Shown: piece after piece, positions 14,971 to 39,925 of the stretch | How the letters are laid out: each line of letters begins with the position of its first letter | How positions within the stretch are numbered: the first letter of the stretch is position 1 | DNA from: Planctomycetota bacterium | GTDB taxonomy: Bacteria > Planctomycetota > UBA8742 > JACQVU01 > JANLHZ01 | Assembly: GCA_024653775.1 (NCBI GenBank) | Contig: JANLHZ010000184.1 | Coordinates: forward strand, 1-44,385 | Direction of reading: 5' to 3' | DNA: 44,385 bases | Notes under the pieces: generated by a model | What the model was told of the DNA's origin: nothing | Database searches by the model: none | The model's input: the letters and a program-made list of their open reading frames with translations, nothing else | Position numbers and translations under genes: made by a program

Positions 14971-15436
14971 ATGCCGGAGACAATAGTGTTCGGCACGTCT
15001 CCAGCGGTGAATTTTGCCGATTGCGTTTTTGTTCAGGATTGCCTGTCAATCCTGACATGATGACATCTAAACGCCATCATGATATGACCCGAAGGTAATG
15101 CAACCTTACATACAGGAAGTTCACAGTGACAACCCAGAAAGAAGTTGACGGAAAGATGATTGCATTCGGACGATATTCTTGTTAACCTGTATGCAATGAA
15201 AATTATAGATGAAGATTCAGCTTATAGATATATATGCAATAGTATTTTAAGAGTTATAAATACAATTAATAGTGAATTGTATTTATAACTCTTAAAATAC
15301 AGTACATATAGATTAGGTAGTATAAATGCCAACGTTCCAATTTTGGCGTGAGCGTTAAGTGAAACCGGTCGCCGGGTTTTCCCGGACGACCCAATAATTT
15401 TTAGCGCCGATCGTGCCGAACACTATTGATGCCGGA
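14971..15436 (+). mobile_element. MITE-like element copy A with flanking direct repeats
   Basis: The core is 14981-15428 (448 bases), bounded by a perfect 17-bp terminal inverted repeat, CAATAGTGTTCGGCACG at 14981-14997 and its complement at 15412-15428. ATGCCGGA occurs on both sides (14971-14978 and 15429-15436), fitting a target-site duplication of about 8 bp. A central perfect 26-bp inverted repeat (arms 15242-15267 and 15275-15300, 7-base loop) is flanked by blocks shared with copy B, such as AGGAAGTTCACAGTGAC (15114-15130). There is no open frame of note, so it is non-autonomous. The whole 14920-15546 gap is accounted for by this element. Confidence 0.85.
15242..15300. repeat. Central long palindrome of element copy A
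   Basis: A perfect 26-bp inverted repeat with a 7-base loop, AT-rich, containing TTAAGAGTTATAAATACAA and its complement. The equivalent hairpin in copy B is at 28102-28152. Confidence 0.9.
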
Positions 15437-15546
15437 TACGTGCCTCACCGATCGCATACATAGAATCGGATAAAAAATCGGGCCGATCCGTTGGATCAAC
15501 CCGATTCGTTACTTACCTTCAACTAATTGTCCGAGTGTTTTCTAGG

Positions 15547-27878: not shown

Positions 27879-28101
27879 TCGGTCCCGGACGTTGTCGCTA
27901 GATATCGGGCGCTCTTTATTTAAGCGAATAAAGTCTAATCGAAGTTTGAAAAAAATTAAACGAGTAATACCAATAGTGTTCGACACGATTGGCGCGAAAC
28001 ACTATTGGGTCGTCCCAGAAAACCCGAGACAGGTTTTACTGACCGCTAGCGTTAAAATTGGAACGTCGGCATTTGTGTAAACAAAGCTATATGTATTGTA
28101 T

Positions 28102-28152
28102 TTTAAGAGTTATATATACAATTAATTATTAGTTGTATATATAACTCTTAAA
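28102..28152. repeat. Central palindrome of element copy B
   Basis: A perfect 20-bp inverted repeat (28102-28121 with 28133-28152, 11-base loop). At one position copy A has ATAAAT/ATTTAT where this copy has ATATAT/ATATAT, a paired change that keeps the stem. Confidence 0.9.
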
Positions 28153-28334
28153 TAACATTACAATTTTTCCATAATGTGAACTATTATCGATTGTTTTCAT
28201 TGACGGCAGGTTAGCAAGAATATAGTCCGAATGCAAACATCTTTCCGTCAACTTTTTTTCTGGCACTGGTCACTGTGAACTTCCTATATGTCAGGTGGCA
28301 TTACCTTTGGGACATACATGATGGTGTTTCGATG

Positions 28335-28373
28335 GTTTTTGTTCAGGATTGCCCAGCAATCCTGAACAAAAAC
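28335..28373. repeat. 18-bp perfect hairpin inside element copy B
   Basis: GTTTTTGTTCAGGATTGC, loop CCA, then its exact complement. Copy A keeps a 9-bp version (15033-15055). It lies about 155 bases before the TPR-peptidase gene and could also act as a terminator. Confidence 0.85.
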
Positions 28374-28526
28374 GCAGGCGACAAAATTCACCGCGGGAGG
28401 CATGAAGAACACTATTCCGAGTAACACTTCGATTGATCGAAAATCATCCTTCGGCAATAATAGAGGAACGATCCCGCAACGTGGGAGTATAATATTGTGG
28501 CGTTTAACACTCGGACCCGGGAAGAA

Positions 28527-31454: not shown

Positions 31455-31461
31455 CGTTTAC

Positions 31462-31560
31462 ATTACATTATATTCGTACCGTCTACGAATTATTCGTACG
31501 ATTCTTCGACAACGGAAGTATAGCACAGTAAATTCGTAGACGGTACGAATATAATGTAAT
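31462..31560. repeat. 99-bp palindromic element with 30-bp arms
   Basis: Arms 31462-31491 and 31531-31560 are perfect 30-base complements (containing TTCGTACCGTCTACGAATT) around a 39-base spacer. It starts 8 bases after the TPR-peptidase stop. A one-armed relative is at 34133-34169. The size and arms suggest a tiny non-autonomous mobile repeat; in RNA it would be an extremely stable 3' hairpin. Confidence 0.9.
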
Positions 31561-31699: not shown

Positions 31700-33055
31700 A
31701 TGACTAGAACAAAGTTCCTGATTGTATTGGCTATGTTTGCATGCTCCACGCTTACCGGATGCAGCGTGTGGGACTGGATGTTCGGGAGCGAACCGGAACC
31801 GCAGCCGAATAACGCGAATGCGGGAAACGAGAACACCGGAGGGATAGTTCCCGCGGCGAACAACACCGCCGTCACGAATATGATGTCCGGCGCTTACATC
31901 GTTGCGCCCGATCCGATGACGCCGTTTGTGGGGCGCCCCGGGATCGATGAAAATATGAGCGCAACTCCTATCCGCGTCGGCGTGATCAGCTTCGCGGGTG
32001 CGCTCGCTACGAGCGATGACGCCGGGAGCAGGTCGGTCCTGCTGCGCTGCTTCAAGGAGAAACATGGCGCTAACACGGTCGAGGTCGATATTTCCAAGTT
32101 CTCCGGATATTTCAAGGATACGGAATCGCTCGAAAACGTTTTCAAGGATAAGACCACGGGACATGCGTTCCGGACTTTCGTTGCGAGGTTTGCCGGTCTG
32201 GAGGCGCAGTGCCACGTCATCGGTTTCGCGTACAAGGGCGTTCTCGGAATCTACTCGGTCGTTCCGGACAAAGCCGCGTTTACGAACTCCGAGGTGACTC
32301 CGGTTCTCTACGAAGCAACGTTCACGACTCCGGCCGATCTGTACGCCAAGCTGAACCTATACACTCCAGCCTGGAGATCGGTGCTGCACTATCTCCATCC
32401 GAACATGATGATGACGACGGATTACACCGTTCTCGTTGCGCCTTATTTCAGCGCGTTCGAAAACGCGACGGAAGCCGATTTCGGGACTTACAGTTTCGAG
32501 ACCGCGCTCGCAACGGAGCAGAATCGCAACCCTGCGAGCTACATCGGCGGGACTCTCGTTAGTTCGCTTGCGGACGCTCTTGGCCGCTGGAATTCGAAAC
32601 GCCAGGCCTGGGCGCTCGATCAGCTCACGGCGTTTGAAACCAAGGTGAAAAGCGACATGGTTTCCACGAACGAATCGCTTACGGAGGAACTCGACGCACT
32701 CGCCGCGAAGTTTGCGGGAATCGAAGCGGCGGAAGCGAAGGTCGCGGACATTCGCAGTTATCTGCAGACGCGCGCGCCTGCGAGTTCGACTCCGAGCTGG
32801 GGCGGCGGTCAGCCTGCGACTCAGCCGAGCACTACTCCCGGCTGGGGCAACCAGCCCGCGAGTCAGCCTGCGACTCAGCCGAGCACTACTCCCGGCTGGG
32901 GTAACCAGCCCGCGAGCCAGCCCGCAAATCAGCCAAGCTCTGCGCCTGGCTGGGGCAACCAGCCCGCGAATCAGCCCGCGGCGAATGAACCCGCGAATCC
33001 TCCGGCGAATGAACCCGCGAGTCAGCCGACCAACAGACCCGCGTGGGGAAGATGA
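31700..33055 (+). CDS. Lipoprotein with Gln/Pro/Trp-rich tandem-repeat tail
   Basis: 451 residues from ATG 31700; an upstream TTG is in frame but would precede the signal. The signal peptide ends in the lipobox LTGC (Cys about 21), giving a lipid-anchored protein. Asn/Pro/Glu-rich linker residues follow, then a globular domain (about 65-340) that I do not recognise, with a helical segment before the tail. The last about 80 residues carry imperfect 18-residue repeats around QPSTTPGWGNQPASQPA, encoded by nearly identical 54-base units between 32811 and 32975. Such tails suit cell-wall or protein binding. A good terminator follows. Function unknown. Confidence 0.85.
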   Translation: MTRTKFLIVLAMFACSTLTGCSVWDWMFGSEPEPQPNNANAGNENTGGIVPAANNTAVTNMMSGAYIVAPDPMTPFVGRPGIDENMSATPIRVGVISFAGALATSDDAGSRSVLLRCFKEKHGANTVEVDISKFSGYFKDTESLENVFKDKTTGHAFRTFVARFAGLEAQCHVIGFAYKGVLGIYSVVPDKAAFTNSEVTPVLYEATFTTPADLYAKLNLYTPAWRSVLHYLHPNMMMTTDYTVLVAPYFSAFENATEADFGTYSFETALATEQNRNPASYIGGTLVSSLADALGRWNSKRQAWALDQLTAFETKVKSDMVSTNESLTEELDALAAKFAGIEAAEAKVADIRSYLQTRAPASSTPSWGGGQPATQPSTTPGWGNQPASQPATQPSTTPGWGNQPASQPANQPSSAPGWGNQPANQPAANEPANPPANEPASQPTNRPAWGR

Positions 33056-34132: not shown

Positions 34133-34169
34133 CATTACATTTTATTCGTGCCGTCTACGAATTATTTGT
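34133..34169. repeat. Single arm of the 99-bp palindromic element
   Basis: ATTACATTTTATTCGTGCCGTCTACGAATTATTTGTA here differs at only a few positions from the left end at 31462-31498. No complementary arm follows. It starts 25 bases after the PHP stop. Confidence 0.75.
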
Positions 34170-34274
34170 AAAATTATTGCCAATCGCTCGATAACCCACA
34201 TTCGCGGCAATTGCAACACCCGCGTCCTCGCCTGCTCCGGGAGTGCAGACGTCCCGTCCACGCATTATTTTTTG

Positions 34275-35028: not shown

Positions 35029-36717
35029 TTAACCAAGAAGACTGAGGACAGCCTGAGGCGCCAGATTTGCAGAAGCAAGCGTGGACACCGCCGCCTGGAA
35101 CAGGATCTGTGACCGCACGAAGTCGGTGGTCTCGGACGCGAAGTCCAGATCTCTGATTGAAGACTCCGTCGCGGAGAGGTTCTCGATCGCTACGTTGAGA
35201 CTGTCGATGTTTGGATCGATAGTGTTCGACTGGAGCGAGCCGAGGGCGGCTCTCGTTGCGGAAACCTGCGAAATCGCGGCGTCGATGATTCCCAGCGCGT
35301 TCTGCGGGTTTGCGCTGAGGTCGTTGTCGCCGCCGGTACGAAGAGAGCTGAGGAACCCGCCTTCGAGCGTGCCGCTGTTCGCGTTCGCCGTCGAGTCGTC
35401 GTTCTCCCTGCTGACTTCGAGACCGAGGTCCGCGGTGCGGATCGAGTTGATTCCAACCGTGATCCTGTCGCTCGGCAGCGCAGACTCGCTGAGCTGGAAC
35501 GAAAGACCGCTGTTCGAGGTGTTTGCGACTTTGAACAGGGTTCCCGACAGGAAGTTGGTAGAGCTCTCGACCTGACCGAGGTACTGATAACGCTGGCTGA
35601 ACGTGATGTCCGCCTGAAGTGTCGGCAGGTTCACGCTCACCTTGTTACCGTTGCCCGTGACCGGCGTAGAGCCGACGCGGACGACGATATCGGTACCGGA
35701 ATCGGAAATGATCTGCCCCGCCGCGCTCATGGTGCTGGTTCCATCGGTGGTGAAGTCGTTGTTGACCTTGTTGTAACCACCCGTGATGAAGGAATCGGTA
35801 ACCACGATCTTGAGCGAGGAGCTCGAAGCAGTGAGCCTCTCGAGGCTTATGGACTGGTCGGAGCCGTAGCCCGTGGAGAACAGCGCGAAGGACGCTCCTG
35901 AACCGCCGGTCGACATTCCCGACACCGAGGAGTTGGTCGCCGATGCGTACACGCCGGTCGCCGAGGTGTTGGCGTTGACCTGATCCATGAAGTCCTGGAA
36001 GGTGGAACCCGAAGCGAGGGAGATTTCCGCCACTCCGAGGTTTCCGGTGATGCGGAACTTGATCACGTCGCCCGTGCCGCCCGACGAAGCGGGGAGACCC
36101 GGGGAGCCGGAGATCAGTCTGCTCGTCGCGGCGACGCTGCCGCCGGTCGAAGCGAGACGGATAACCGCTCTCGAAGCGATCTGGGTGACTCCGAAGGTGA
36201 AAGACACGCTGGACGCGTTGTTCGCGAACTGCACGTTGTTCACCGCGAGGCCGTCGATCGCGCTCGACTTGTTCGTGATCTTGAACGCACTGCTTCCATC
36301 GAGAAGCGACTTGCTTCCGAAACGTGTCGCCGCGGCGATGCGATCGATGGCGTTCAGAGCCTGGTCGACCGATGCCTGTTCCGCGGCGATCTGTTCGGAG
36401 GTCAAGCTGCCTCCGTTAAGAGCGAACACGACGGACTCGCGAATCCCGACGAGTAGCGAGGAGACCTCGTTCAGAGCCGCTTCCGCGGTTCCGATGAGGT
36501 TCGACGCGAACTCCGAGTTGCGCACGGCCGCCTTCAGAGAGGCGGTCTGAGCCCGAAGCTGCTCGCTGATGACGAGCCCTGACGGATCGTCGGCAGCGGA
36601 GTTGATGCGAAGACCCGAAGAGAGTCTCTGCATGTTCTTCTGCTGTTTTCCATCGACAATATTGAGTTGCCGAAGGGCGGACATAGCCGCTGAATTGGTG
36701 TTAATCCGAAGTCCCAT
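35029..36717 (-). CDS. Flagellin 2
   Basis: 562 residues, a filament subunit. The N-terminus MGLRINTNSAAMSALRQLN and INSAADDPSGLVISEQLRAQ form D0/D1; the C-terminus LDFASETTDFVRSQILFQA to APQAVLSLLG completes them. The central region (about 150-430) is Ser/Gly/Thr-rich and would be exposed on the filament. It has the same length as flagellin 3 and is alike at most positions by eye, so the two arose by duplication. AAGGAGGAT lies at ideal spacing. A 10-bp hairpin and a FlgM-like gene follow. Confidence 0.96.
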   Translation of the reverse strand: MGLRINTNSAAMSALRQLNIVDGKQQKNMQRLSSGLRINSAADDPSGLVISEQLRAQTASLKAAVRNSEFASNLIGTAEAALNEVSSLLVGIRESVVFALNGGSLTSEQIAAEQASVDQALNAIDRIAAATRFGSKSLLDGSSAFKITNKSSAIDGLAVNNVQFANNASSVSFTFGVTQIASRAVIRLASTGGSVAATSRLISGSPGLPASSGGTGDVIKFRITGNLGVAEISLASGSTFQDFMDQVNANTSATGVYASATNSSVSGMSTGGSGASFALFSTGYGSDQSISLERLTASSSSLKIVVTDSFITGGYNKVNNDFTTDGTSTMSAAGQIISDSGTDIVVRVGSTPVTGNGNKVSVNLPTLQADITFSQRYQYLGQVESSTNFLSGTLFKVANTSNSGLSFQLSESALPSDRITVGINSIRTADLGLEVSRENDDSTANANSGTLEGGFLSSLRTGGDNDLSANPQNALGIIDAAISQVSATRAALGSLQSNTIDPNIDSLNVAIENLSATESSIRDLDFASETTDFVRSQILFQAAVSTLASANLAPQAVLSLLG

Positions 36718-38151: not shown

Positions 38152-39840
38152 CTACTGCAGCAGTGAAAGCACGGTCTGCGGAATCAGGTTCGCCGAGGCG
38201 AGGGTCGAAACCGCCGCCTGGAAGAGAATCTGTGACCGCACGAAGTCCGTGGTCTCGGACGCGAAGTCGAGATCGCGGATCGCGCTTTCCGTGGCGCTGA
38301 GGTTCTCGATGGCGACGTTGAGGCTGTCGATGTTCGGATCGAGAGTGTTCTTCTGGAGCGAGCCCAGCGAACTCCTGATTCCGGACACCTGCTCGATAGC
38401 CGCGTCGACGATCTGAAGAGCGTTCTGCGGGTTAGAGCTGAGGTCGTTGTCGCCTCCGGTGACGAGCGAACTGAGGAAGCCTCCCTGGAGGACTCCGGCG
38501 TTCGCGTTCGCCGTTCCGACTTCGTTCTCCCTGCTGATCTCGTATCCGAGAGCCGCGGTCCTGACGGAATCTAGACCGACGGAAATGCGATCGCTCGGAA
38601 GCGCGCTTTCCGCGAGCTGGAAGGTCAGTCCGCTGTTAGAACTGTTCAGCACGGTGATGAGATTTCCGGAGAGGAAGTTAGTCGTGGGCGAGGTCTGCCC
38701 GAGCACCTGGTAGCGCTGGCCGAACACGACATCCGCCTGCAGAGTGGGCAGGTTCACGGAAATCTTGTTGCCTTTGCCGGTGACGGGAGTCGATCCGACG
38801 CGAACGACGATATCCTGGCCGATGTCGCTGACGATTTCGCCCTTCTGGCTCATTGTGCTGATGCCGTCGGTGGTGAAATCGCCGTTCACCTTGTTGAAGC
38901 CGCCTGCGACGAACGCGTCGGTAAGGACGATCTTCGTGGTGGACGAACTCGCGGTGATGCGCTCCATCGAAATCTGCTGGTCGGAACCGAATCCCACGCT
39001 GAAGAGCGCGAAGGACGCACCGGACCCGCCCGAGCTCGCCCCCGATAGAGAGCTGTTCGTGCCGGACGCGAAAACGCCCGTCGCGGAGGTGTTCGCGTTG
39101 ACCTGATCCATGAAATCCTGGAAGGTCGAACCCGAGGCGAGCGAGATTTCAGCGACGCCGAGGTTTCCGGTGATGCGGAACCTGATGACTTCGCCCGTTC
39201 CGCCCGAAGAGGCGGGAAGACCCGGAGAACCGGAAATCAGCCTGCTCGTCGCCGCGACGCTTCCACCGGTGGAGGCGAGACGAATTGTCGCGCGCGATGC
39301 GACCTGCATCACTCCAAACGTAAAGGTAACGCTGCTTGAGTTTGCGTTGAACTTCACGTTCCGAAGCGAGAAGCTGTCGATTGCGCTCGACTTGTCACTG
39401 ATCTTGAACGCGGCGCTACCGTCGAGGAGCGACTTCGAGCCGAACCTCGTCGCAGCCGCGATGCGATCGATCGCGCTGAGTGCGCGGTCGACCGTGGACT
39501 GCTCGGCGGCGATCTGTTCGCTTGTGAGCGTTCCACCGTTTAGCGCGTAAACCACGGATTCGCGTATCCCGACTAGCAGCGAAGACACCTCGTTAAGAGC
39601 TGCCTCCGCCGTACCAATCAGGTTTGAAGCGAATTCCGAGTTTCTCACCGCCGCTTTAAGACTGGCGGTCTGCGCGCGTAGCTGCTCGCTGATCACCAGA
39701 CCCGACGGATCGTCGGCGGCGGAGTTGATTCGGAGTCCCGTGGAAAGTCTCTGAAGATTCTTGCTTTGTCCGCGATCTACTATTGCAAGTTGGCGCAGAG
39801 CGGACATAGCCGCAGAATTGGTATTGATTCTAAGTCCCAT
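38152..39840 (-). CDS. Flagellin 3
   Basis: 562 residues from ATG 39840 (AAGGAGGAT just upstream; the longer in-frame extension is rejected). The ends match flagellin 2 closely (MGLRINTNSAAMSALRQLA; LDFASETTDFVRSQILFQA; tail IPQTVLSLLQ). Differences cluster in the middle, as expected for paralogues with different surface domains. It heads the second flagellin/FlgM-like unit and has the longest structured leader in the window. A candidate sigma-28 promoter lies at 40194-40221. Confidence 0.96.
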   Translation of the reverse strand: MGLRINTNSAAMSALRQLAIVDRGQSKNLQRLSTGLRINSAADDPSGLVISEQLRAQTASLKAAVRNSEFASNLIGTAEAALNEVSSLLVGIRESVVYALNGGTLTSEQIAAEQSTVDRALSAIDRIAAATRFGSKSLLDGSAAFKISDKSSAIDSFSLRNVKFNANSSSVTFTFGVMQVASRATIRLASTGGSVAATSRLISGSPGLPASSGGTGEVIRFRITGNLGVAEISLASGSTFQDFMDQVNANTSATGVFASGTNSSLSGASSGGSGASFALFSVGFGSDQQISMERITASSSTTKIVLTDAFVAGGFNKVNGDFTTDGISTMSQKGEIVSDIGQDIVVRVGSTPVTGKGNKISVNLPTLQADVVFGQRYQVLGQTSPTTNFLSGNLITVLNSSNSGLTFQLAESALPSDRISVGLDSVRTAALGYEISRENEVGTANANAGVLQGGFLSSLVTGGDNDLSSNPQNALQIVDAAIEQVSGIRSSLGSLQKNTLDPNIDSLNVAIENLSATESAIRDLDFASETTDFVRSQILFQAAVSTLASANLIPQTVLSLLQ

Positions 39841-39866
39841 TACTTCAATCCTCCTTGATTGATAAA

Positions 39867-39888
39867 ATTTGGACGTCCCTGTCCAAAT
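39867..39888 (-). promoter_or_regulatory. ANGGAN hairpin of flagellin 3
   Basis: ATTTGGAC-AGGGAC-GTCCAAAT: a perfect 8-bp stem with hexaloop AGGGAC, identical to the loop of the distal flagellin 2 hairpin, about 9 bases before AAGGAGG. Confidence 0.68.
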
Positions 39889-39925
39889 GGACAATGCAAA
39901 TAGCACGGTCCACAACGAAGCGACG

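Follow-up and report, generated by a model that had tools for sequence, protein, structure and literature searches.

Elements of the IS4 family are moved by a DDE transposase acting on their ends, with a staggered cut in the target which the host then fills in. Classic MITEs have TA ends or TA-type duplications. The DDE residues and the YREK motif are the hallmarks of the IS4 family (PMC2266710). Two of its subgroups are relevant here: IS4, whose ends follow the consensus -AATR--------WTW----, and IS4Sa, with ends CA------T, a length of 1150-1750 bp and repeats of 8-10 bp (PMC2266710). Bacterial MITEs such as Correia/NEMIS, RUP, ERIC, Chunjie and QMITE are short and dispersed, have terminal inverted repeats (TIRs), lack a transposase and are driven in trans, and several of them carry hairpins or conserved internal motifs (PMC10969869, PMC2229807). 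The word IS4 is absent from a 2024 review of prokaryotic MITEs (PMC10969869). REPINs, which are tied to RAYT transposases, are also dispersed, non-autonomous and hairpin-forming, and compensatory changes were reported to be common in their hairpins (PMC3116915). Finally, the creation and repair of hairpins by template switching has been documented (PMC8794818).

The window, that is the whole stretch of 44,385 nucleotides that was analysed, contains an element (copy A) which resembles these bacterial MITEs in the respects listed above and was probably, like them, driven in trans. Its features are collected in Table 1. The perfect 17-bp inverted terminus and the 448-bp core described in the first-pass annotation were both recovered exactly, and no ORF of at least 100 aa was found within the element, as had also been stated. 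Copy A has a GC content of 38.6%, against 56.6% for the window. It differs from classic MITEs, with their TA ends or TA-type duplications (PMC2229807), in having 10-bp duplications of the IS4 type. Just inside its right end lies a second terminus-like sequence, which by inspection reads CAATAGTGTTTAGCGCC in other copies and is absent from the ends of the insertion sequence described below. The internal block TTCGGRCKATATTCTTGTTA was found at 20 places in the genome, and at none when reversed. The most conserved stretch of the whole family (0.99) is ATATTCTTGTTA, at 15173-15184; it lies a short way upstream of the central palindrome, in the portion without IS homology. A candidate promoter, TTGCAT-17-TAACCT, was unsupported, since the promoter scan of the element found 2 for 2.1 expected.

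Table 1. Coordinates of copy A, copy B and the second subfamily (window positions unless a contig is given)
Feature	Position	Strand	Sequence or remark
Left target site duplication (10 bp)	14971..14980	+	ATGCCGGAGA
MITE copy A, 448 bp	14981..15428	+	
Left terminal inverted repeat	14981..14997	+	CAATAGTGTTCGGCACG
IS-derived left end	14981..15140	+	68% identity to first ~160 bp of IS C252
Conserved internal block	15161..15184	+	..TTCGGACGATATTCTTGTTA; 20 genome places, control 0
AT-rich palindrome, 5' arm, 26 bp	15242..15267	+	perfect in copy A
AT-rich palindrome, 3' arm	15275..15300	+	co-varies with 5' arm between copies
Second inverted terminus-like sequence, just inside right end	15392..15408	+	CAATAATTTTTAGCGCC; by inspection
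Right terminal inverted repeat	15412..15428	-	reverse complement of left
Right target site duplication (10 bp)	15429..15438	+	ATGCCGGATA
Copy B target site duplication	27961..27970	+	CGAGTAATAC
MITE copy B, inverted	27971..28417	-	81% identity to A over full length
Copy B other target site duplication	28418..28427	+	CGAGTAACAC
Second MITE subfamily member (L069, L070 pair)	C196:13484-13935		perfect 10-bp duplication CCTTTCGACT
Second MITE subfamily member (L069, L070 pair)	C239:8971-9421		

The genome to which the window belongs (5.42 Mb, fragmented into 331 contigs) was searched with copy A. The search gave about 15 copies of nearly full length and several partial ones; altogether the MITE is present in about 20 copies, which are diverged (75-91% identity to copy A). 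One of them is the inverted copy at 28 kb, copy B, and its reported end-to-end match to copy A was confirmed. On each strand the 17-bp terminus, with at most 2 mismatches allowed, has 26 occurrences; the reversed pattern gave none, so that this count is not due to chance. Several single ends and a second MITE subfamily of 451-452 bp account for some of these termini; the subfamily has the same ends and a similar terminus-like sequence at its right end, with a core unrelated to that of copy A. Parts of this second subfamily were also seen on C188, C30 and C288. The further copies that the first-pass annotation had proposed to look for thus exist in the genome itself, but not in the 59 other genomes of the phylum that were searched, the nearest of which shares the order only. 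Neither a distant blastn of copy A against plasmids, nor a search of viral contigs with the left-end pattern, nor a literature search with the terminus sequence gave a match. One copy (C43:8447-9117, L024/L018) is split by an insert of ~218 bp, at the edges of which ~7 bp of the MITE are repeated. This insert is possibly another small mobile element, and sequence similar to it adjoins truncated copies on C178 and C166.

The first-pass annotation had reasoned that an element devoid of any open frame would need a transposase in trans, and had predicted a transposase gene with the same termini. Such a gene is present in the same genome, within an insertion sequence of 1502 bp (C252:1313-2814, IS C252) that has CAATACTGTTCGGCACG at both ends, is flanked on both sides by the 10-bp duplication CCTGCTGACG, and encodes an intact ORF of 411 aa. 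The protein scored 85.1 bits against PF01609 (cut-off 23) and 191.6 bits against the IS4 model NF033592 of NCBIfam (cut-off 115). IS4 membership was examined through three features, D(60-110)D(100-150)E, Y(2)R(3)E(6)K and direct repeats of about 10 bp, and all three were found: the DDE residues, assigned by motif and not by structure, are D157, D222 and E327 (spacers 64 and 104), and the Y(2)R(3)E(6)K motif is YRHRWHVELFFRWFK. The family, which had not been recognised at first, is therefore IS4, as judged from these sequence features. Sixteen of the 17 terminal bases are common to IS C252 and the MITE, and the single end present in another IS copy, on C106, matches the MITE terminus at 17 of 17; this C106 copy is decayed, with a stop codon, and is cut off by the contig end. 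Similarity extends beyond the terminus. The first ~160 bp of IS C252 are 68% identical to the MITE left end over 140-160 bp, and the last ~30 bp of the MITE also match the IS. The middle ~260 bp have no counterpart in it.

In end consensus and duplication length, the closest subgroups are IS4Sa and IS4 (De Palmenaer et al. 2008, PMC2266710). As in IS4Sa, the ends of IS C252 begin with CA and have T at position 9, and its ends, length and duplication agree with that subgroup (CAATACTGT, 1502 bp, 10 bp). As in the IS4 subgroup, AATR is present at positions 2-5; WTW is absent from the ends. The single ORF, the DDE spacers, the YREK motif, the size and the 10-bp duplication are all those of the IS4 family, from whose members the MITE differs by its lack of a transposase gene. 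Other genomes of the phylum encode IS4 transposases related to this one, whose elements end in the same type of terminus, CAATNCTGTTCGGC or a near variant, with duplications of 9-11 bp where these could be read. In one relative (L100) the terminus is exactly CAATAGTGTTCGGC, with the duplication ATGCCGGAAC. The best named match is a plasmid IS of Isosphaeraceae bacterium EP7 (Planctomycetota, pEP7_02), with ends CAATCGTGTTCGGCACC. These elements resemble IS C252 in the type of terminus (CAATNCTGTTCGGCAC and near variants), and the best transposase matches are 34-49% identical; unlike the MITE, they are gene-bearing and 1.3-1.6 kb long. A query of the genome contig collection with the transposase gave one distant match, at 28% identity.

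The element is thus short and without a transposase gene, has TIRs in common with an autonomous IS, is flanked by a target duplication and exists in dispersed copies, all of which are criteria for bacterial MITEs. We conclude that it is almost certainly a MITE which derives from an insertion sequence of the IS4 family, is not autonomous and was presumably moved in trans by a related transposase. A REPIN/RAYT identity was ruled out by the 448-bp unit, the 17-bp IS4-type ends, the 10-bp duplication and the IS4 partner. What the MITE retains of the IS is its left end, as far as the region of the transposase start codon, and ~30 bp at the right terminus; the left part seems to run just past this start codon, a putative GTG at 15126. 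The rest, AT-rich palindrome included, is not IS-like. The core beyond ~160 bp is without IS match, so that a simple internal deletion of one of the observed IS copies does not account for the MITE. As for its movement, the DDE transposase of IS C252, or that of a related element (the decayed C106 copy, for instance), would bind the 17-bp ends in trans, excise the MITE and join it to a target whose strands are cut 10 bp apart; gap filling by the host would then yield the duplication. A complete MITE-IS pair is in this way available for an IS4 lineage, with ends, 10-bp duplications, empty sites (see below) and transposase. In kind, such an IS4-family MITE is ordinary; its less ordinary feature is the covarying palindrome.

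The palindrome at the centre of copy A folds, as DNA, into a very stable structure (z -10.7). Its 21-pair core was followed across 20 copies. Of all cells, 85% are paired, and 12 of the 21 pairs have changed on both sides. Cells with a double change number 41, compared to 17.9 in shuffles and 7-11 in slid controls. On a copy tree that is weak in places, with ancestral states from a simple model and one fixed arm register, 23 paired double changes were counted, 19 of them on end branches, where about 2-4 were expected from a simulation of independent evolution. The arms have undergone 3.0 changes per site, against 2.3-3.4 in the AT-rich neighbours and the loop. Since the arms change as fast as their surroundings, it is the pairing that is kept, and not the sequence. 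Mispaired cells comprise 17 G-U and 20 A-C, with no wobble bias on either strand, which argues against selection acting on an RNA of either strand. The palindrome is therefore likely to be maintained at the DNA level.

We hypothesise that template switching between the two arms during replication is the simplest form of such maintenance. Our tentative reading, held with limited confidence, is that in these dispersed and mostly immobile copies template switching during replication homogenises the arms where they lie (or else the palindrome is selected as a DNA cruciform), and that covariation arises here without any RNA function. Covariation without wobble is what template switching predicts (PMC8794818). 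The one-base insertions present in copies A and C290, where the stem is longer, fit copying from the opposite arm.

It is possible, though rather doubtful, that the palindrome is selected as DNA, being a cruciform, a protein-binding site or a transposition enhancer, with no homogenisation by template switching. The pairing held without conservation of sequence, the arm rate matching that of neighbours and loop, and the missing RNA signature would all suit this explanation. Yet no long palindrome comparable to that of copy A is seen in the second subfamily, which has the same size and ends. Timing also counts against it. The two arms of the target duplications differ at 11 of 150 positions (10-bp cases), about 7%, or about 4% per lineage, and in the copy tree the median length of the end branches is 0.052. 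The changes on each end branch may therefore largely postdate insertion, at a stage when selection for mobility should be relaxed. From the same divergence of the duplications, and from the 75-91% identity of the copies to copy A, most copies are probably old, with activity past or rare.

Selection of the palindrome as an RNA carried by the MITE (a small RNA, a terminator or an RNase III site) appears unlikely. It would account for pairing being kept despite altered letters, as seen in the two-sided pairs and the excess of double changes, as well as for the stability of the copy A fold, itself computed for DNA, and for the conserved block directly upstream; stem-loop RNAs have moreover been described for other MITEs (PMC2229807). 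The lack of wobble bias among mispairs nevertheless speaks against it, and so do a promoter scan no higher than in shuffles, an Rfam scan of the window that returned tRNAs only and nothing for the element, and the much weaker stems of several copies. Maintenance of the palindrome at the DNA level has a bearing on RNA discovery, where caution is called for: strong covariation is possible in selfish DNA without a wobble signature. With about 20 separate copies the template-switch idea is testable, and if in-situ homogenisation of the arms or cruciform selection is true, the family would constitute a replicated natural experiment on 'compensatory' covariation.

Flanks were compared for 18 elements (17 MITEs and the IS), with registers between 8 and 12 bp. 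Fifteen of these have duplications of 10 bp, the other 3 duplications of 9 bp. In the 10-bp register left and right flanks are 82% identical, compared to 27% when the flanks are taken from different copies, and identity falls to 22-36% in the other registers. Wherever both ends of a copy are present, it has a duplication of its own, of 10 bp or sometimes 9 bp, and homology between copies stops at the termini. Copy A does carry a repeat on both sides, as the first-pass annotation had reported, with a length of 10 bp and one mismatch instead of 8 bp: the 8-mer noted, ATGCCGGA, corresponds to the first 8 bases and stops 2 bp before the left terminus. Taken alone, this 8-bp match in copy A would suggest another transposase family, one making 8-bp duplications, as the driver of the element; such an origin is very improbable, given the 10-bp duplications of 15 of the 18 elements, the same termini on an IS4 element, and IS4 relatives elsewhere with the same ends.

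Empty sites were searched in the same genome, using flanks joined minus one duplication. The target of the C142 copy was found uninterrupted at C177 and C21 (97.7%), and that of the C160 copy at C303, C173, C147, C60, C53 and the far end of contig C142; all these sites have a single 10-mer, which demonstrates insertion. Both copies sit in members of other repeats, so that these empty sites are paralogous. For copy A no empty site was found in this search; the proposed check on empty sites was thus answered for C142 and C160 only. In a copy tree built with the hairpin left out, A groups with C142 and B with C170, and not being nearest relatives, A and B are not the products of one local duplication. 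Segmental duplication or gene conversion of one locus without transposition, for which the A-B similarity alone could be invoked, can be dismissed, since homology stops at the termini, both-ended copies have their own duplications, A and B do not pair in the tree, and the single-copy targets of C142 and C160 refute it. The initial preference for transposition over segmental duplication is upheld by the same evidence, together with the about 20 copies.

Other repeats were observed in the window. Positions 1-70 are the end of another multi-copy repeat, which recurs at 7 or more other sites, most of them contig ends. The C160 copy of the MITE sits inside a member of this repeat. An inverted repeat of ~46 bp, 85% complementary, occupies 31461-31560, and a single arm related to it (87% identity) lies 2.7 kb away, at 34133-34178. 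Together they look like a further dispersed palindrome family. Two minus-strand ORFs, at 35029-36717 and 38152-39915, contain DNA blocks that are 78-81% identical, in the same register and 3123 bp apart, and represent a gene duplication. Finally, a 54-bp repeat is present three times in tandem within an ORF, at 32808-32969.
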